Shown here piece by piece: positions 23,973-41,160 of a stretch of 64,000 nucleotides of DNA (position 1 is its first letter; every line of letters begins with the position of its first letter). A program made the position numbers and the translations under genes. The stretch is taken from positions 14,458,501-14,522,500 of the forward strand of contig JAGUCH010000002.1 in NCBI GenBank assembly GCA_019096065.1, given 5' to 3'. The notes below the pieces were generated by a model. The model was given only the letters and a program-made list of their open reading frames with translations. It was not told where the DNA came from and did no database searches. The stretch is from Paracyclopina nana (Eukaryota > Arthropoda > Copepoda > Cyclopoida > Cyclopettidae).

Positions 23973-26945
23973 CTAACAACAGCCGATCCATGTGGGCTCT
24001 CCTGTGTATGTTCGTCCTTTCATGCGAAGCTCCCCCCATTTTCCCACAAACGTATTAAGCGATGCTAGTTGCGACTTTTTGGGCCATACTTTGTGTTTGT
24101 GGAGATAGTCCATTTCTTCACAAAACTCCTTTGCTTGGGACATACCAATCAAAATGCTCTCAGTCTTTTCCAAAGCAGCTGGCCTGGGTTCGTACTGAGG
24201 TGCTGGCCTAGGTCCATCCTTTTCCTTGTAGACTATCGAAATCTGTTTGAGGAGAGCCAACTTACGTATCAGTTGCTTGAATGTGAGCCTGTTGTGATAA
24301 GGCACATATTCTGCCCATGAATTATCAGGTAGGGTCTTCCAAGAGGTCCACCTGTCCAGGTTTTCATCCTTGTGTACTAGATGCTCTGGGACTTCACGTG
24401 CTCCAGCTCGATAAACTTGCTCCAAAACGGCAGCCAGAGTTGACATGATGGTGGCAGATTTCTTCGTGGTTTCCTCCATTACTGCCAGATCGTCGTCGGT
24501 GACATCAATGATCTCATCAGGGTACTCATCGGGCGTCTTGCATAGCCAACTTGGACCATGTGTCCACAATTCGTGTTCTGAAAGCTGCTTGCATGACAGG
24601 CCTCGCGTGGCTAAATCAGCTGAGTTCTCCTTTCCCTTGACGTGCCTCCACCTCCAGGTGTGAGTGAGTTCGAAAATCTCCGAAACTCGTCTGCCAACAA
24701 AGGCTTTCCACACTCTGCCAGGCTTGGCTAACCACATTACCACACACTTAGAATCTGTCCATAGGAAGACCATGTCAATGTCACCAAGGAGCTCCTGTAG
24801 GTGTCTAGCAAGACGCGCACCTATAAGAGAACCAAGAAGCTCCTTTTCAGGTATAGACCTGACTTCACTCAAGGGGCAAAGCCTCATTCTTGATGCTGCC
24901 AAGACGGAGCTCGTTGGCCTTGTGTCGTACACACTGACTACATAGGCACACGCTGCATATGCTACGTCTGATGCATCAGAGAACACATGAAGGTATTTGC
25001 GTATTGCTCCCTCAGAACTCAGCGCTCGGTGAAACTTGACTAAGGGCAGATCAGCCAAATCAGAGACATACTCACGCCATTTTTTACAAATGTCCTTGGC
25101 GTCTTGCGAGGGCAGGCTCTCCAATTCACTGTCCCATGTCACCTCCTGTGTGGCTCGCAGAGCGCATGCTGCTTGGATCAGAAGCTTGGGCTTGAGCAGG
25201 AGTGGTGTGACCAACCCAAGCAGGTCAAAAAGCCTCGGAGTGTACTGAGTCATCAGCCTCAAAGTTATGGGCTTACCTTCGAAGGGCTCATATGAGGGGC
25301 TTTCGAAATAGATTTTGTCGTCTGTGAGGTCTATATACATGCCCAGTGCTTTCGTTTGGTGGTGGTCAGAGTCTTTCACATGGCACACAGTGGCTTTCCA
25401 GTCTTCAGGCAAATGAGCCAGAACTTCAGGGTGTGAACAAGTCCATTTTCTCATCGGAAGCTGCGCTTCTCCCATAATGCGAATGATGTCATCGACTGCC
25501 GTCTTGGCTTCCTCAACTGAGCTTACTGAGGCGATCAAGTCATCGACATAAAGTGAGTTAGTAAGCAGCTCATAAGCTTCAGGGCATGTGTCCTTGTACT
25601 GCTCAACATGCTTTTGCACACAATAAAGGGCCATGCAAGGCGCTGAAGTTGTACCAAAGGGCACAGACTTAAATTCATATGCTTCACCTTGCCAGAAGAA
25701 CCTGTGAAACTTCCGGTCCTCTGGAAACAGCCTGAATCGCAAATACATTTTACTCACATCGCCTGTAATGCACACTGGTTTTTGCCTTGCTTTCACTACA
25801 ATGTCAAAGCAGTCTTTTTGCAGCTTGGGGCCCGGCATGAGCGCGTCGTTTAAGGATTTTCCATCCCTGGACTTTCTTGCACCGTCAAAGACCACTCTCA
25901 CTGGCATGCTTGGCTTGTCATACCTTTTCACGAGAAGCCAATTGAGGAATCTCCCCTCCTTGATTATGTCGCTAGGTCCCAACTTGCGAACAAAATCAAG
26001 ATTCACCCATTCATTGACTTCTTGGCATGATTTTTCATATGCTTTTTCACTATAGCTTTTGAGCTTGGACTCCAGCTTATTCGTGTCTCTGAGCACTTCA
26101 TCAGCATTATTAAGGAATTTGGGCTCACCTTTTTTCCATAGGCTTGGCACTGCCATTTGTCCATTGGCCAAGCGGTGCGTCTTGCTCAGTATTTCATAAG
26201 CCCTTTTTTCATTTAAGGACACAAGCTTAGGCTGGGCTGCATTGACAAACTTGTCCAAGTCATAGAGCAGCCGAAGGGAAGCATACGGTGGTTCACTTTT
26301 ACAGCAACTATTGTTCATGTTCAGTGGCTCCAAGACGGTAGACACAACTGAACTAGGCAATGCACTTTCAGAGTAGGCAATCGTTGGTCCTAACTTAGTC
26401 AGGATCAAAATTGGTTCACTAGGCGTCTTGCCCCTCACTATGGTGGTTGGACTGATCAGGTCAAAATCACACATGCCAATCAGCACTTGTGGAGCACCAC
26501 TCGCAAAGTTAGGAAAACACACTTTCTTTAAATGAGGGAATGCGTCTTGCAGTTTTTTCACAGGTGGCAACTTCATTGATGGCTGAAGGTGAGGCATAGT
26601 GTCGACTTTTACCTCATAAACTTTGCCTGGATCACTGAGGGGTTTCACACTTAATAATGCCTGAAAACTCTGAAATGTTGCTTCTGCTCCTACAAATGAA
26701 AGCACTCTGTCCTTAGAGCTCCCAGTGAGCCTCAGCCTTGTGGCTAAATCAACAGTGATAAGTGATAATTCACTGCCATTGTCCAGAAAAGCATTAACAG
26801 TTATTTGTACATCCGGGACGGAGGGGTTAGACACTTGCACTGGAACGACGGGAAAAACAACTCTTTGATTTTTAGAGAGTACCTTTGTTTTGGCTTTGAT
26901 AGACGCCACCAGCTGATGGAGCGAAGGGGAGCTCGTATTTTGGCG
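23973..26945 (-). CDS. pol: BEL/Pao pol: protease, RT, RNase H; integrase missing
   Basis: An open frame of about 990 codons runs directly on from the gag stop codon, in the same frame and without an ATG near its start. The aspartic protease motif is AFLDNGSELSLI near the N-terminus. The RT has a fingers/palm region with FDGARKS and VPFGTTSAP, and the catalytic YVDDLIAS. RNase H follows with FSDASDVAYAA and a later FLWTDSK. The C-terminal tract GKWGELRMKGR corresponds to the entry of the integrase zinc-binding region, where the protein stops at TWIGCC. The enzyme would copy element RNA into DNA but could not integrate it by itself. The reading frame is long and clean, so the copy is young or selected. 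Integrase loss is a large deletion or an insertion breakpoint at about 23973. Confidence 0.9.
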   Translation of the reverse strand, partial: RQNTSSPSLHQLVASIKAKTKVLSKNQRVVFPVVPVQVSNPSVPDVQITVNAFLDNGSELSLITVDLATRLRLTGSSKDRVLSFVGAEATFQSFQALLSVKPLSDPGKVYEVKVDTMPHLQPSMKLPPVKKLQDAFPHLKKVCFPNFASGAPQVLIGMCDFDLISPTTIVRGKTPSEPILILTKLGPTIAYSESALPSSVVSTVLEPLNMNNSCCKSEPPYASLRLLYDLDKFVNAAQPKLVSLNEKRAYEILSKTHRLANGQMAVPSLWKKGEPKFLNNADEVLRDTNKLESKLKSYSEKAYEKSCQEVNEWVNLDFVRKLGPSDIIKEGRFLNWLLVKRYDKPSMPVRVVFDGARKSRDGKSLNDALMPGPKLQKDCFDIVVKARQKPVCITGDVSKMYLRFRLFPEDRKFHRFFWQGEAYEFKSVPFGTTSAPCMALYCVQKHVEQYKDTCPEAYELLTNSLYVDDLIASVSSVEEAKTAVDDIIRIMGEAQLPMRKWTCSHPEVLAHLPEDWKATVCHVKDSDHHQTKALGMYIDLTDDKIYFESPSYEPFEGKPITLRLMTQYTPRLFDLLGLVTPLLLKPKLLIQAACALRATQEVTWDSELESLPSQDAKDICKKWREYVSDLADLPLVKFHRALSSEGAIRKYLHVFSDASDVAYAACAYVVSVYDTRPTSSVLAASRMRLCPLSEVRSIPEKELLGSLIGARLARHLQELLGDIDMVFLWTDSKCVVMWLAKPGRVWKAFVGRRVSEIFELTHTWRWRHVKGKENSADLATRGLSCKQLSEHELWTHGPSWLCKTPDEYPDEIIDVTDDDLAVMEETTKKSATIMSTLAAVLEQVYRAGAREVPEHLVHKDENLDRWTSWKTLPDNSWAEYVPYHNRLTFKQLIRKLALLKQISIVYKEKDGPRPAPQYEPRPAALEKTESILIGMSQAKEFCEEMDYLHKHKVWPKKSQLASLNTFVGKWGELRMKGRTYTGEPTWIGCC

Positions 26946-26948
26946 TCA
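26946..26948 (-). promoter_or_regulatory. In-frame UGA between gag and pol
   Basis: Gag ends CAA-TGA-C and the downstream frame stays open into pol in the same phase. Pol has no ATG of its own near its start. UGA followed by C is a known leaky context. Readthrough would give a gag-pol fusion. Alternatively the stop is a single point mutation in one former reading frame. Confidence 0.55.
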
Positions 26949-29900
26949 TTGTTTGGAGTCTAATTTTTCACTTAGTGACACCACCAGGGCCGTCAGTTTT
27001 TCCAGATCTTGTCCTTGTTTTTGGATTTGAGTTTTCATTTCATCAGGCACACTTACTGAGGCAGTCGCTTCCGCTGCTTTCTTCTTTCTGCCGGCTTTTG
27101 AGGCTAGGGCTTCAAAGGCACCATGCAAGACGCCATGGTGTTCGCTGCTGCCACACACTTTACAGGTACCAGTGGAATCACAGTCTGCCCTAATGTGTTT
27201 GCCTTTAAGACACTTATAGCAGGCTCCGGTGGGTCGTAAATTGTAGATCTTTTGCCGATCGTCAATCTGATCCAAGACTGGGCACCGGAAGAGCTTGTGA
27301 TCCTGGCTGCATAGTGGGCACGACACAAAAGTGAATTGTGCGTCTTGCCTGACACTTAGGACGACCGCTTGGTTGTCTTGATCAGTTTCAGACTCTGTGG
27401 AACCTGTTTGGTCCAAATGTCCATCCACCTGTTGTAGTGAGAAGGTGGTTTTACCCTGTTGATAGTTGCCTCTTGCAAACATGGGCTTTGTGTCATACTT
27501 TTTGAGCGGATACGAAACCTTCGGTGCAGTATTTGCTGGAGCAGCTTCTTCAATGGCATCAAAGTCATCACCAAATTTGACATGTGTGGCAGCCCATTGC
27601 TCAAATAGGTCCAGAGTGAGAGTATCCCTACCTAGGGTGGCCAAAAATGTTTGGACATGCTCTCTAGTTCGGGGTGCCAACTTAACAGTTTGAATGGCCA
27701 ATGTAGCAAAGGCAGACTGATTAGACTTTGACATCTTTCCCCGCGCACACGCCTTGAGCTGGCCCATGAATTCCAGCATGTGTTCGCGTACTGCGATGAC
27801 AGTTTCCGTCTTCTGCATGTCGACCAGGGGCAGCTTTTGAAGCTTGTGAGTCGCATAAGCTAGCAACTTTTCCAAGTTGTAGTACTCCTTGTCAAGATGT
27901 CTCAGCGCCTTGCGATAACCTCTCTTGCTCCGCTCATGATTTTTGACGAAATGCGAAGCGGGACCGTCTTGGGTGGCATTTTTAAGCCTCACAAATTTTT
28001 CTTCATAAGAGAGACCTTGGTCTCGATGAATGTATTGCCTAAAATCAAGACGGAACTCGTGGTAGAGGTACCTATTTTTGCCTGTGAAGGTGGGAGCTTT
28101 CAAGTTGTCAAACTTGATCGGGCGTCTTTGCTTTTTGTGCTTGACGACTCGAGTACCACTTGACGAAGAAGACCCCGACGACGACGAGGAGGATGACCCC
28201 TTTCGTTTCTTTTTGCCCTTCTTTTTCTTCTTGGAGCTGCCATCATCAGACGAGTCCGAAGGATCAGGATCAGTGTCCCAGAAGTCTGACTCAGTCTCAT
28301 CGTCTTCCTCTTCCTCAGTAGACTCATACTTTTTCTTGCGTCTTGCTTTACTTGAGCCCGAGGACTTGCTTTTGGAGCCCTTGGAGCTTGACTTTTTGTC
28401 CTTGATGTGCTTTTGTCGCTCCATCTCCTTCTTTTCTTCCGGGTCAGGTCGAGTGTCCTTCTCATAAGCATCAGAGAATGGATTGTAATACAGCCTTGAT
28501 CCTCCTGGACTACGAACAGGATCAACTTTGGAGAACTTGTACATGCTCTTGCGTGACATTCTCAAGCTGTATTCTTGCACCTTGATCCACTCATGGGCTT
28601 GATCAGACAAGTTGCCGTATTTCTCATCCTCTCCATCCAGCTCCCTTGCTCTCTTATATGACACACTCTGAAGCTCGTTCCAACTGTGTATCCACAAATC
28701 AATGCATGCCTCCATGTCAGTTAAGAGGGTCTTGATAGAGCCGAGCTCTCCATCACTGCCATCGTAATACTTGACCGCATCGACCATGCGCTTGGCTGCA
28801 TACTGGAGGTTCTTGTGGGCGTCTTGCAGCTGGGCTTCTTGGTCAATATAGTTGAGTTCTGGAGGGGCCTTGGTGGGGTCATACAAGAGCTTGGCCTCAT
28901 CCTCTTTAGCTTTGGGCTTGATTTTTGGTCCAGTCTCTTGCTCTGCAGGCTTGTTTTTTGGTCTAGTCTCTTGTTCTGCAGGCTTGTTGACATGAAGGGT
29001 CTTCTTGACAAGTGGAGCCTGACCTGTAGCTTCCTTTTCCGGCCTTTTGGTGTTGGCTGGGGGCGTCTTGCCAGCAGTGGCATTGCTAACCTGCTTGGCT
29101 TTCATGGCATTCATAATGTCTGACTGAAAGAAAGCAGAGGTGACATCCAGCATGGCATCACTCCTCAGATCATGCTCAAGTTGAGTTGCAAATTGTTGCT
29201 CATTTAGAGCCTGGATTTCAATGCTCTCTTTGACCACTGCCTTCATTTCTTGCGCTTTGCCAATGGCATCCTTGAGGGATACATGCGTCTTGCCTGCATT
29301 CTTGAGCAGTTGGTCTGAGGTGGTGAGGTTGGCCTCTTCATGTACATCCATGTATTCTTGTTCCAGGGCAGCTAGGTCAATCCTCTCATCTTCCATTTCA
29401 GAGGTCATTATTTCAATTGCTTCAAGATTTAGCACCTCTGAGCGCATAGCATGCCTGTATTTTCTGACCATATTGTTCACATCAGTGATTCGTCTACCCA
29501 AATCCAGTCTGAGGTTGGTGGCTCTTCTTTGCAATTCCAGCCTTGCATCATTGCGACGTCTCCTCTCAATCCTTTCTTCCTCAGTGAGCTTGGAGGACTT
29601 ACTAGGTTGCTTTTGGGCATTGGGATCATCAGCCAGGGATTCATTGGCATCCTCTGCTGATTGGTCCTTTTCTTTGGCAGGTGGAGGTTCTTCCTCTCTC
29701 AGGGTATGCTCTTCCATGGCATTAGAGGCAGCACTGGAAGGCCTAGAGTCCTTGTCAGGGTCTTTATTGCTGCGCGTCTTGCGAGTCATGACTTCAGGTG
29801 TACCTGGAGTGGCTTGGATAAATTGCAAGAATTGTTTATAATCTCTATTTAATGCTGGTGGGGGAGGTTGAGGAGTGCTCAGAGCCAGACTAGCTGGGCT

Positions 29901-29981
29901 AGTTGGTGATGCTGATGTGAGCTCCCAATCCTCTTCGAAATCCTCCAGGATTCGCCTAGGTGGAGGTGGAGTATTGCTCAT
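26946..29981 (-). CDS. gag: BEL/Pao gag polyprotein, 1011 aa
   Basis: The frame starts at the ATG at 29981 (MSNTPPPPRRIL) and ends at the TGA at 26946-26948. The N-terminal third is charged and coiled-coil-like, with an EEERIERRRR segment. The middle is a Ser/Lys/Glu low-complexity region (KKKKKGKKKRKGSSSSS). A DUF1759-like capsid region follows, with KFDNLKAPTFTGK. Three zinc-knuckle-like clusters lie near the C-terminus (CPLCSQDHKLFRC; CYKCLKGKHIRADC; CKVCGSSEHHGVLH). It would form the particle and bind RNA. At 1011 residues it is long for a gag. The single stop between it and pol is discussed separately. Confidence 0.85.
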   Translation of the reverse strand: MSNTPPPPRRILEDFEEDWELTSASPTSPASLALSTPQPPPPALNRDYKQFLQFIQATPGTPEVMTRKTRSNKDPDKDSRPSSAASNAMEEHTLREEEPPPAKEKDQSAEDANESLADDPNAQKQPSKSSKLTEEERIERRRRNDARLELQRRATNLRLDLGRRITDVNNMVRKYRHAMRSEVLNLEAIEIMTSEMEDERIDLAALEQEYMDVHEEANLTTSDQLLKNAGKTHVSLKDAIGKAQEMKAVVKESIEIQALNEQQFATQLEHDLRSDAMLDVTSAFFQSDIMNAMKAKQVSNATAGKTPPANTKRPEKEATGQAPLVKKTLHVNKPAEQETRPKNKPAEQETGPKIKPKAKEDEAKLLYDPTKAPPELNYIDQEAQLQDAHKNLQYAAKRMVDAVKYYDGSDGELGSIKTLLTDMEACIDLWIHSWNELQSVSYKRARELDGEDEKYGNLSDQAHEWIKVQEYSLRMSRKSMYKFSKVDPVRSPGGSRLYYNPFSDAYEKDTRPDPEEKKEMERQKHIKDKKSSSKGSKSKSSGSSKARRKKKYESTEEEEDDETESDFWDTDPDPSDSSDDGSSKKKKKGKKKRKGSSSSSSSGSSSSSGTRVVKHKKQRRPIKFDNLKAPTFTGKNRYLYHEFRLDFRQYIHRDQGLSYEEKFVRLKNATQDGPASHFVKNHERSKRGYRKALRHLDKEYYNLEKLLAYATHKLQKLPLVDMQKTETVIAVREHMLEFMGQLKACARGKMSKSNQSAFATLAIQTVKLAPRTREHVQTFLATLGRDTLTLDLFEQWAATHVKFGDDFDAIEEAAPANTAPKVSYPLKKYDTKPMFARGNYQQGKTTFSLQQVDGHLDQTGSTESETDQDNQAVVLSVRQDAQFTFVSCPLCSQDHKLFRCPVLDQIDDRQKIYNLRPTGACYKCLKGKHIRADCDSTGTCKVCGSSEHHGVLHGAFEALASKAGRKKKAAEATASVSVPDEMKTQIQKQGQDLEKLTALVVSLSEKLDSKQ

Positions 29982-30044
29982 GAGTGATTGACTCCCCCCA
30001 TAGCAATGCCAAGGCTAATATTTATGAGTCAGAGCATAAAATGA

Positions 30045-30720
30045 GAGTAGCAATACGCGTTCTCTTTTTAGTCAAAAACTTAAAACAAGGTCAGCAAGAC
30101 GCTTTACCCCTTGTATTTTCAGACTGCTTGTCATTGGCAAGCCTCTTGCAGTTTTTAGTAGCAAGACCAGTGTTTAGTGGAAAATTCCGTTGACATTTTC
30201 CGCATCGGCGGCCTCGCCACTTTGCTTCGGTTTTGGGCCAAATAGATGTCAATCCGGGTGCACAGTTGAGCCGTCAATCCCAGTCCTCAGGCTGCCATTT
30301 CAGTCAAAGCTAGTCAAGGTATTAAATTAGAGTAGCAAGACGCGTTTCTCTAGTATTTTATTAGTCAAAATCACAAAATTTCATCTAATACAAGGCCAGC
30401 AAGACGCTTGGTGCCCCGTAATAGGCATCGCCAATTTGTCACTGAAGCACTGGAAGGGGTTTCTTGAATTTCTTGAATTCTTTTTTCAAAATTCAAGATG
30501 GCCGACAAAATGGCGTCTTGCGGCTTCCTCCTTCAGTTTTCTCCTCGTTGATGTAAGGTACTACTTGTCATTGGCAGTCTTGATAAGCAGTTGAGGAGTG
30601 CTGGGCTCACGTTAGCGTTTCCACAGCAAGCAAGAACGCGAGTTAGCGGAAATTTCCGTTGGCCATTTTCCGCGTCGCGTCGAACTCGCCGTTTGCTTCG
30701 AATTTTTTGGGCTGCAATGA
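30045..30720 (-). repeat. Duplicated segments in the BEL leader
   Basis: A block with GGAAAATTCCGTTGACATTT then CCGCATCGGCGGCCTCGCC (30178-30220) is repeated in diverged form as GGAAATTTCCGTTGGCCATT (30648-30667) and onwards. A second pair, CGCGTT-TCT then GTCAAAA then CAAGG-CAGCAAGACGCTT, occurs at 30055-30105 and 30340-30410. The 800-bp leader thus grew by internal duplication. Four of the 9-mer copies lie here. Confidence 0.65.
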
Positions 30721-30768
30721 CGGTAGGTGAGACTAATTATAATTTAAACCTCACTTGGTGGGTTGCAG

Positions 30769-30787
30769 CCCCACGAGTTGGGCGCCA
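30769..30787 (-). promoter_or_regulatory. Candidate primer-binding site
   Basis: On the minus strand TGGCGCCCAACTCGTGGGG lies 5 bp inside the proposed LTR edge. TGGCGCCCAAC followed by GTGGGG is a very common PBS form in LTR retroelements. Position between LTR and gag is as expected. Confidence 0.65.
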
Positions 30788-30792
30788 GTTCT

Positions 30793-31037
30793 TGTTACAG
30801 GATGATCTTGAACATTGGGAGTGGTCAAGGGCAATCCTGGTTGACTTTGGATCTGGAGTTGGACAATGGAGTCTCCAGATCAAATCTCCAGCGTGGAAAC
30901 CTCCGATGAGATGGCTCAGAAGCTCCCGCGACTTTGGGTTCGAAAATAAAGAGCTTTTGAAGGTCTTTACTGTTTGGCGGAAAATCTAATACTGTTTATT
31001 TGCATACGTAAACAAAGGGAATTCGGAAATATATACA
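30793..31037 (-). repeat. Candidate 5' LTR of the BEL element
   Basis: Reading on the minus strand, a 245-bp segment starts TGTATATATT and ends CCTGTAACA, immediately before the PBS. It contains an AATAAA and a TATATAT run. There is no second LTR in the window to confirm the boundaries, so the left edge is a guess from TG...CA and TATA position. Confidence 0.35.
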
Positions 31038-31262
31038 GTAGCTCACTGCAACCTCTTACATACTCTTCTTCTTCTCCGACCATTTCTTCTCCTGCAACTT
31101 CCATGTCATCTTCATACACAATTTCAAGTACCGCACCATTAACTGAGCTGACATTTGCTGCCAAGCCATCTAAGTCATTAGTATATTCAACGTTTTGGGC
31201 AGGATTGGGCTGATGTCCAATGGCTCCTTGATCCTCCATGGTTCTTTTGGGGTTTTTCTTGC
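31038..31262. other. Short minus-strand frame, doubtful
   Basis: An open frame on the minus strand (31239-30970) begins MEDQGAIGHQPN and includes an acidic EEMVGEEEEYV stretch. It has no recognised motif and overlaps the proposed LTR. It may be part of the retroelement's upstream region or chance. Confidence 0.25.
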
Positions 31263-40029: not shown

Positions 40030-41160
40030 TGAAAATTGGCTGGTTCTCTGATTAAATGTCACATTTAAGAGACCTAACCCAAACTACTTACAACACCCAA
40101 GAATTATATATTTTCTGAAAGCGTGTGTCCCAAGTGTTCATTTGGTGATAAAATAAAAATCATGGCCTATCGCGTCTAAGGGATATACTAAAATGCGTGA
40201 CATGCGCGACATGCGCGACATGCGCGACAAGCGCGACAAACTACTAAAATGCGCGACATGCACGACTACTAAAATGCGCGACATACACATCAATAAAAAA
40301 AACCATATTTTGTTACATTATGCGATACATGAGAAGCAGCTGCTTTATCAAAATAAATTCAGGAGGATGGCCCCAGGGGAATAAACGCCTCTGTTACGCA
40401 GTACAGCAAGCCGTGTTGCCAATGGATTTTCTGGCTAATGACCAATTTTTTTGTGCAAAGGTGATCTCTTTTGCAGCAGCAATTTTCTACATCAACTTTG
40501 CAAAACCGACGAATTTTGCAACCTGTAGCTCAGAGTCAACCAAATGAGCTGAATTTTTGTGTGTTTCTCACATTTTGCCAGGGCTGAAAATTATATTTAC
40601 GACTTTTTCCAAGTTTGGACTACCAGAGGTAGTTATTTATGAATGCTTTTGGTATTTTTTGTGCTTAATCTTTTCATCAATTTTAACCATACTAACTACA
40701 GTCATGAAGTGCTACTTTGGTTATCCAAATCACCTATAAATGACATTAACAATAATTATGCCATGATTTCAGCCATAACAAAAAAGGTCATCAGAAAGAG
40801 CTCTAATAAGGAAATTTTTGGAAAAACCGTAAATTAAGGCCTGATCAAAATATCGAGCGATATTATACTGATATTAGCAAATATCAGGAACTTATTATAA
40901 TATTTTTATAATAATATTTTTTTATATTTTTTCATCGGATTCGGTTTAAAATCAATATTTAAAGAATTATTAACAAAAAATATTATTTTCATTTTAGTTG
41001 TCTGTCGAGCATGTCGTGCATTTTAGTAGTCGCACATGTCGCGCATTTTAGTTGTTTGTCGCGCATGTCGCGCATTTTAGTAGTATGTCGCGCATGTCGC
41101 GCATTTTAGTATATCCCGCGTCTAATAACATAAATTATGTTTCTGCTGCAAGAACCTTAC
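40030..41160. repeat. Older repeat copy split by a TIR element
   Basis: The block TATATTTTCTGAAAGCGTGT, then CCAAGTGTTCATTTGGTG and AAATCATGGCCT, ends in TAACATAA beyond the inserted element. The same block, uninterrupted, is at about 47785-47875 in the EEF2KMT intron and inverted at about 48195-48270. It is therefore a dispersed repeat family, and this copy carries a younger insertion. Confidence 0.8.
40180..41117. mobile_element. 938-bp TIR element with 8-bp target duplication
   Basis: It starts GGGATATACTAAAATGCG and ends CGCATTTTAGTATATCCC, a near-perfect inverted repeat. Inside each end are alternating GCGCGACAT copies in tandem. The flanks 40172-40179 and 41118-41125 are both GCGTCTAA, a perfect 8-bp target-site duplication. 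No coding frame is present, so it is non-autonomous (MITE-like). An 8-bp duplication fits hAT, P or Merlin superfamilies among others; I do not assign one. Its right end lies 160 bp before the POLR2E start codon. Confidence 0.85.

Follow-up and report, generated by a model that had tools for sequence, protein, structure and literature searches.

Short tags with complementary ends and family-specific cores along BEL/Pao retrotransposons of the copepod Paracyclopina nana

Why would one 9-base sequence recur 17 times along a single retrotransposon? The question arises from a 64,000-nucleotide stretch of the Paracyclopina nana genome (contig JAGUCH010000002.1, positions 14,458,501 to 14,522,500; hereafter the window), which holds a truncated BEL/Pao element on the minus strand (copy A). 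A first-pass annotation had noticed the repeated 9-mer, GCAAGACGC, and had read it as a fixed core under selection, possibly a protein-binding site. Here, we describe this 9-mer as one of a class of tags characterized by enrichment, complementary ends, family specificity, retention at orthologous sites among three related elements (D, E and F) and turnover elsewhere. Tentatively, we propose that a number of BEL/Pao families here carry very short stem-loop tags along their length, which may be read by a fast-evolving element protein, likely the nucleocapsid part of Gag.

A repeated 9-mer with complementary ends

Exact copies of GCAAGACGC number 17 between 24533 and 30521, 12 on the minus strand, which is the sense strand of the element, and five on the plus strand, and none lies outside the element in the 64 kb, just as first annotated. 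None of 100 dinucleotide shuffles reached 17 (mean, 0.42 per whole window). No other 9-mer of the 6 kb is as frequent as GCAAGACGC; the runners-up reach six and are shifted overlaps of it. Its reported placement also held, with 13 copies in the gag and pol open reading frames (ORFs) and four in noncoding sequence, assigned to the leader by position. Shuffling codons while keeping protein and codon usage gave a mean of 0.63 and a maximum of 4 in 1,000 permutations, compared to the 13 observed, which rules out chance or codon usage as the source of the excess; codon-preserving nulls were exceeded in all six copies (A–F) described below. The claim of selection at the nucleotide level, in coding and leader sequence and on both strands, is supported by these nulls and by the orthologous sites retained in D, E and F. 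A repeated peptide was rightly dismissed, as the tags occupy three codon phases on both strands, and the view that they did not arise by recent tandem spread was likewise supported. A genome-wide excess of the 9-mer had been named as evidence against the first reading; the genome at large has 411 copies in 92 Mb, a few per Mb, which leaves the element several hundred-fold enriched, but complementary flanks are mildly commoner genome-wide too, as described below.

Two full-length copies were available for comparison, B (C2:6.06 Mb) and C (C2:13.19 Mb). Long terminal repeats (LTRs) measure 260–268 bp (268 bp in B and C), the two LTRs of a copy being 100% identical in B, C, D and E, and 5-bp target-site duplications were read from the flanks of all four; the identical LTR pairs and the duplications indicate that B and C are young. 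In copy C, DUF5641 scored above its cut-off, and the integrase core and zinc domains scored below theirs. The first-pass annotation had named full-length copies lacking the motif as evidence against it, but 14 of the 17 window sites are exact in B and 15 in C, with 13 identical in both; one site became a tag with an AATAC centre in copy C. Variants with AATAC and AAGGC centres are present as well.

The repeated unit is not the 9-mer as such. Its inner heptamer, CAAGACG, occurs 22 times in copy A, as 17 GCAAGACGC (ends G..C), four CCAAGACGG (ends C..G) and one other, 27 times in the 9.6 kb of copy B (19, seven and one, respectively) and 29 times in copy C (20, seven and two). In A, 21 of the 22 heptamers have G..C or C..G ends, and in B 26 of 27 do; neither G..G nor C..C was found in any of the three copies. 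The outer pair beside the fixed C-G was Watson–Crick (WC) in 36 of 44 core hits in copy B, as compared to 30 in the best of 10,000 shuffles, and at one place the closing pair is doubly changed between A and B/C. The earlier interpretation thus stands where it invoked selection on the nucleic acid and set aside peptide and tandem origins; its fixed core, read as a protein-binding site, gives way to a core with arms that need only be complementary.

Related families carry other cores and one more pair

Three further elements, D (C4:4.81 Mb; locus L044), E (C1:9.87 Mb) and F (C1:10.34 Mb, incomplete at one end, where the retrieved sequence stops), have a pol about 60% identical to that of B and lack GCAAGACGC altogether. 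Matches to SCA-NNN-CGS in these elements have complementary rather than non-complementary ends at ratios of 45:11 in D, 39:6 in E and 56:9 in F, mostly with the cores CAATGCG, CACATCG, CAATACG, CAATTCG and CAATCCG. Within the ORFs, counts of 40, 36 and 49 compare with codon-null means of 13.0, 11.4 and 14.9, all above the maximum of 1,000 permutations; by these means, about a quarter to a third of the SCA-NNN-CGS hits are background. Control ratios were 49:50 in 20 other BEL loci (some of them near-duplicates), 20:24 in the flanks of B–E, 25:15 in the remaining window and 58:42 in a set partly picked for 9-mer content. The outer pair beside the fixed C-G was WC in 131 of 164 hits (best of 10,000 shuffles, 88), and all four WC pairs are used at pair 0. 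In D, tags are found in the LTR too, besides the leader and coding sequence.

Pairing extends one step further in these families, as the bases just outside the 9-mer are complementary in 26 of 34 cases in D, 18 of 31 in E and 27 of 44 in F. Reading this extra pair on the strand with the loop GNATT, GATGT, ACATT or GYCTT gave, for 125 tags, 76 WC, 28 GU, three AC and 18 other combinations. WC and GU together account for 104 (maximum of 10,000 partner-column shuffles, 74), and the signal holds for tags folded on the sense (34/44; shuffle maximum, 31) and antisense strands (70/81; 54). The next pair beyond is unpaired (37, compared to a shuffle mean of 46.7). Tags with the loop ACATC are almost exclusively WC (16 of 17 on the sense strand), so wobble does not assign their folded strand. 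Scanning the sense strand for 3–7-base loops with 2–3-bp stems returned these 5-base loops, counted also as 7-base loops, as the strong signals, alongside a few weak ones such as AACGCTA (3/4).

The two strands of D–F hint at being non-equivalent: GNATT loops on the sense strand are GCATT in 21 of 28 cases, and the free base on the antisense strand is C in 20, T in 16, G in 11 and A in 11. On the sense strand, every leader tag of B and E, and every one of C with a single exception, has GTCTT, GTATT or GCATT; in D and F, most leader tags are ACATC. Grouping ACATC post hoc by its CAU centre would make almost every leader tag sense. Kissing between AATGC and GCATT loops within one RNA was rejected: summed over four loops, tags with AATNC on the sense strand show 16 A.C and no G.U at the following pair, indicating that folding there is not on the sense strand. 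A long hairpin around the 9-mer was also discarded, as flanks past the short stem are not complementary.

D, E and F further share a third ORF after pol (1,033–1,068 amino acids; in D at L044:3716-6862) with a Cys/His cluster near its C-terminus. A Pfam search with ORF3 of D gave one match, below the cut-off at E 0.87, and a PDB search gave none at E<=1; the protein may be a mut-7-type exonuclease. It is excluded as the tag reader because B and C are tagged yet show no such ORF, and as an envelope because each of the three proteins has at most one hydrophobic stretch.

Cores differ between co-resident families

Tags of similar design, built on other cores, mark other BEL loci of the genome. 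In six of them (L018, L026, L027, L029, L033 and L034), the hexamer CTTAAG is flanked by complementary outer bases in 14/14, 14/14, 7/7, 9/10, 7/7 and 4/4 cases, the last count, from L018, being tentative. Its first arm pair is GC in 31, CG in 15, TA in seven, AT in two and AG in one; 55 of the 56 tags form 8-base palindromes and at most 32 form 10-base ones, and the cores of A–F are not perfect palindromes. The third pair out is rarely complementary (WC in 4 of 56), as if the CTTAAG stem were kept from lengthening. A third group (L015, L017 and L021) uses AGTAGT/ACTACT, with arms of two to three pairs: ACTACT on the sense strand is WC in 18, 16 and 15 of 20 at successive pairs, and AGTAGT in 6, 5 and 2 of 8.

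Complementarity accompanies the core of the family concerned, with complementary to non-complementary ratios of 26:1 for CAAGACG in B, 55:1 for CTTAAG in its six loci, 24:4 for ACTACT in the AGTAGT loci, and 41:3, 24:5 and 22:1 for CAATGCG, CACATCG and CAATACG in D–F. Foreign cores stay at background (CAAGACG 1:4 in D–F, CTTAAG 0:2 in B, ACTACT 9:6 in the CTTAAG loci). A pol tree supports clades of A–C, of D–F and of L026/L027/L029/L033/L034, with L018 standing apart; L015, L017 and L021 fall into one clade with the untagged L032, internally unresolved. A test on single loci reached its cut only for L027, L033 and L034, with L029 borderline, and missed D, E, F and several CTTAAG and AGTAGT loci; one of 26 control pieces passed, a repeat at 40202-41095 of the window. 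A distant BEL group (38–39% amino-acid identity; C1:4778010, C1:14514830, C2:7976414 and others) has five of six matches in open frames of 2,887–3,044 amino acids, and scans of IMG/VR returned no BEL relatives.

Retention and turnover of tag sites

Tags in B–F are spaced 200–285 bases apart on average, chance background included; regular spacing was rejected because the standard deviation of the gaps is near their mean. Among 50 tagged pol columns, a single one, column 1465, is tagged in all of B–F, with the strand flipped in E. Between D and F (pol 73% identical), kept tags amount to 10/15 in pol, 8/13 in ORF3 and 4/6 in gag, against 6–9% of matched positions (9% in pol), and three of the 10 kept pol tags are not letter-for-letter the same. 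E and F share 8/12 ORF3 tags (background, 3.6%), and D and E share 5/15 in pol and 6/13 in ORF3. Selection on the number of tags more than on their place would give such a pattern. A small mobile insert was dismissed as the source, since most pol places are substitutions without a gap in the codon alignment; some gag places lie at gaps.

A folded-tag reading and its rivals

Our preferred reading, which we advance as a plausible but far from settled one, is that of dispersed mini-hairpin address codes private to co-resident families: the loop would name the family, the arms would be free but paired, and a co-evolving element protein would read the code in RNA on one strand and in cDNA on the other. 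A tag would consist of a 4–5-base loop, nearly fixed per family and closed by a fixed pair, and of one to three further pairs whose identity would be partly or wholly free while complementarity is kept. Recognition would take place in the folded state, in single-stranded element nucleic acid (genomic RNA and/or cDNA). Arms of free sequence but kept complementarity, together with a fixed loop, fit a folded single strand, and dispersed stem-loops sharing a loop motif are indeed found statistically, by column pairing, their folding being predicted. That one genome, and one nucleus, houses different cores suggests that the element itself encodes the reader; for the same reason, a single host zinc finger or small RNA, as initially suggested, becomes less likely. 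Gag is the natural candidate because it carries CCHC and CCHH knuckles and is less conserved than pol (nucleotide identity of B to D–F, 48–49% in gag and 60% in pol). From these sequence features, we infer that the likeliest fast-evolving reader is the nucleocapsid portion of Gag; as particles assemble or reverse transcription proceeds, it could then distinguish its own family from host RNA and from the other families in the genome. Tags on both strands would make sense if one nucleocapsid bound both sense RNA and minus-strand cDNA.

Several results weigh against this reading. Use of both strands is the main puzzle, with the folded strand in D–F being antisense for 81 tags and sense for 44; it argues against ordinary genomic-RNA packaging signals, which would keep to the sense RNA strand and alone do not account for tags on both. 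Isolated hairpins are barely stable by calculation (mean, −0.5 kcal/mol in B and −1.0 in D–F), and the opposite strand is no weaker; at such marginal stability, any hairpin would need its protein. In B, the next pair out is unconstrained (12 WC and two GU of 34; shuffle mean, 14.2), and likewise in C (14 WC and two GU of 37). GU at the extra pair of D–F is about as frequent as composition predicts (28 versus 25), it being the other mismatches that are depleted. Within-tag differences are not significantly fewer than expected (3 versus 5.5 in A, 1 versus 1.5 in B, 1 versus 4.1 in C); as a broken copy, A may be free of constraint. Retention is nil in gag from D to E (0/7) and from E to F (0/6) and close to nil from B to D (1/16 in pol, 0/8 in gag). 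No clear tag emerged in L016, L019, L022, L023, L024, L032 and L035–L038, pieces of 3.3–4.3 kb for which the single-locus test is insensitive. Complementary flanks of CAAGACG are also mildly commoner genome-wide, with 811 complementary and 504 non-complementary SCAAGACGS matches; copies A–C contribute only 74 and do not account for this excess. Finally, copies A–C are not independent, and all data come from one genome.

Alternatively, the tags could be orientation-free duplex DNA sites for an element or host protein, such as an insulator, transcription or chromatin factor. This is the main rival, and we judge it rather unlikely. Families with asymmetric cores do use both strands, the orientation flips at an orthologous place (pol column 1465), tags occupy leader, coding and, in D, LTR sequence, and CTTAAG is a duplex palindrome. 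A protein reading the duplex has, however, no need of complementary arms whose sequence is otherwise free; the fixed base preference per position that it should show is not seen, as arms vary while complementarity stays, and the polarity of tolerated mismatches tracks the loop strand (28 GU, three AC). Self-complementary contacts, in which each place would pair with itself in two identical genomic RNAs during dimerization or condensation, would suit the CTTAAG tags, 55 of 56 of which are 8-base palindromes, and Ty3 RNA dimerizes through a short palindrome (PMC11381356). Such pairing seems improbable to us, however: the three to five central bases of the A–F tags would be mismatched in the duplex, wobble polarity places most D–F tags on the antisense strand, which is absent from genomic RNA, and dozens of sites here contrast with the one in Ty3.

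Were the tags mutational scars, for instance of fold-back templating by reverse transcriptase at pause sites, functionless complementary arms might be expected on both strands without any selection. This leaves the core itself unexplained (CAAGACG 27 times in the 9.6 kb of copy B), as well as the orthologous sites kept above background among D, E and F and the stems of D–F that extend past two to three pairs less often than the shuffle mean (37 versus 46.7), making the scenario very improbable. That the tags help to direct, or to escape, host machinery that uses small RNAs or processes hairpins, and that acts on transcripts from either strand, strikes us as a long shot. It would accommodate the use of both strands, with antisense more frequent in D–F, and the sense-strand mismatches at the second pair of the CTTAAG loci (11 A.C, three G.U), but not cores that are private to families within one host.

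Known systems and significance

The Su(Hw) insulator of Drosophila gypsy is a protein-binding motif that recurs within an LTR element, as the tags do; its fixed duplex motif is clustered in one untranslated region, whereas the tags spread over the whole length, with complementary arms and family-private cores. The subterminal transposase-binding repeats of Ac and En/Spm are short motifs in both orientations with an element-encoded reader, as proposed for the tags, but they occur at the ends of DNA transposons only, while the tags run throughout retrotransposon coding sequence. In RNA viruses, PMC6281560 describes many short stem-loops along the genome with a shared loop motif read by the capsid protein, and dispersed packaging signals are covered for MS2, picornaviruses and hepatitis B pregenomic RNA (also PMC7612645 and PMC7793301). 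The tags resemble these signals in being many dispersed, predicted short stem-loops with a common loop motif. However, viral signals lie on the packaged strand and have a loose loop motif, whereas the tags have near-exact loops, occupy both strands and belong to LTR retrotransposons; moreover, co-resident families here have different loops, and their reader, Gag, is putative. Ty3 PAL6 is, like the tags, a short self-complementary sequence in an LTR retrotransposon, a palindromic dimerization site near the 5′ end (PMC11381356). Unlike this one site, the tags number tens over the whole length, and full palindromes are restricted to the CTTAAG loci. The same paper calls the cis-acting sequences of Ty3 not precisely defined and states that the untranslated regions and POL are both needed.

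Nothing like family-private tags in LTR elements appeared among the matches listed, in a literature search that took in few subscription papers. How an LTR retrotransposon chooses its own RNA in the cell is poorly defined, and family-private tags along the whole element would offer a testable answer. If our reading is true, they would represent a self-recognition system for retroelements, in which a rapidly evolving loop code would pair with a fast-evolving Gag. They would also serve as a warning that nucleic-acid tags shape the coding-sequence evolution of retroelements.

Parts of the window element

Copy A encodes a Pao-type pol (Peptidase_A17, reverse transcriptase) and a DUF1759 gag, which identify it as a BEL/Pao LTR retrotransposon. 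Its 5′ LTR (30793..31060, minus strand, 268 bp) is 99.6% identical to the far LTR of copy B and 100% to that of copy C. The leader, that is, the LTR-to-gag interval defined by position (30000..30792, minus), is followed by the gag ORF of 1,011 amino acids (26946..29981, minus; DUF1759, CCHC/CCHH zinc knuckles), which ends in TGA. The CCHC and CCHH knuckles, located by pattern match in the translation (27123..27221, minus), form the candidate tag reader. Gag and pol lie in one frame, separated by a lone TGA (26946..26948, minus) in the context CAA TGA C in 6/6 copies, making stop-codon readthrough probable. The truncated pol ORF (23973..26909, minus) contains Peptidase_A17, RVT_1 and DUF1758 and lacks a 3′ LTR; homology to the full-length copies ends near 23982, and hence both integrase and 3′ LTR are absent. 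Scanning the window with Rfam covariance models gave no matches at the gathering threshold. Among named organisms, sea-louse copepods come nearest to a plexin ORF of the window (about 39%; best matches overall, up to 75%), in keeping with a host that is a small-genome crustacean, probably a copepod; COX1 had no match in the assembly.

Within pol, GCAAGACGC lies on the minus strand at 24533..24541, 25099..25107, 26177..26185, 26423..26431 and 26542..26550 and on the plus strand at 24808..24816. CCAAGACGG is found on the plus strand at 24899..24907, in copy A only, with B and C differing at both paired positions 2 and 8, and at 26330..26338, and on the minus strand at 25499..25507, by position the column 1465 place tagged in B, C, D, E and F. 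Variant tags are GCAATACGC (24999..25007, minus) and GCAAGGCGC (25635..25643, plus). Gag carries GCAAGACGC on the plus strand at 27125..27133 and on the minus strand at 27340..27348, 28338..28346, 28819..28827 (one mismatch in B), 29063..29071, 29285..29293 (copy A only, one mismatch in B and C) and 29774..29782, along with GCAAGGCGC (27905..27913) and CCAAGACGG (27964..27972), both minus. The leader holds GCAATACGC at 30050..30058 and GCAAGACGC at 30094..30102, 30335..30343 and 30399..30407 (the AATAC variant in copy C), all plus, and GCAAGACGC at 30513..30521 on the minus strand, which is absent from copy B.

Two other repeats were noted. At L049–L051 (C2:2559001-2589000), each 10 kb contains 12–14 copies of AAATGCATT, and GCAAGACGC appears a single time in every stretch, with a spacing of about 8.3 kb, which looks like a long tandem repeat. 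In the window at 40202-41095, the control piece mentioned above, ATGCGCGACA occurs five times per strand in two facing clusters about 0.8 kb apart.

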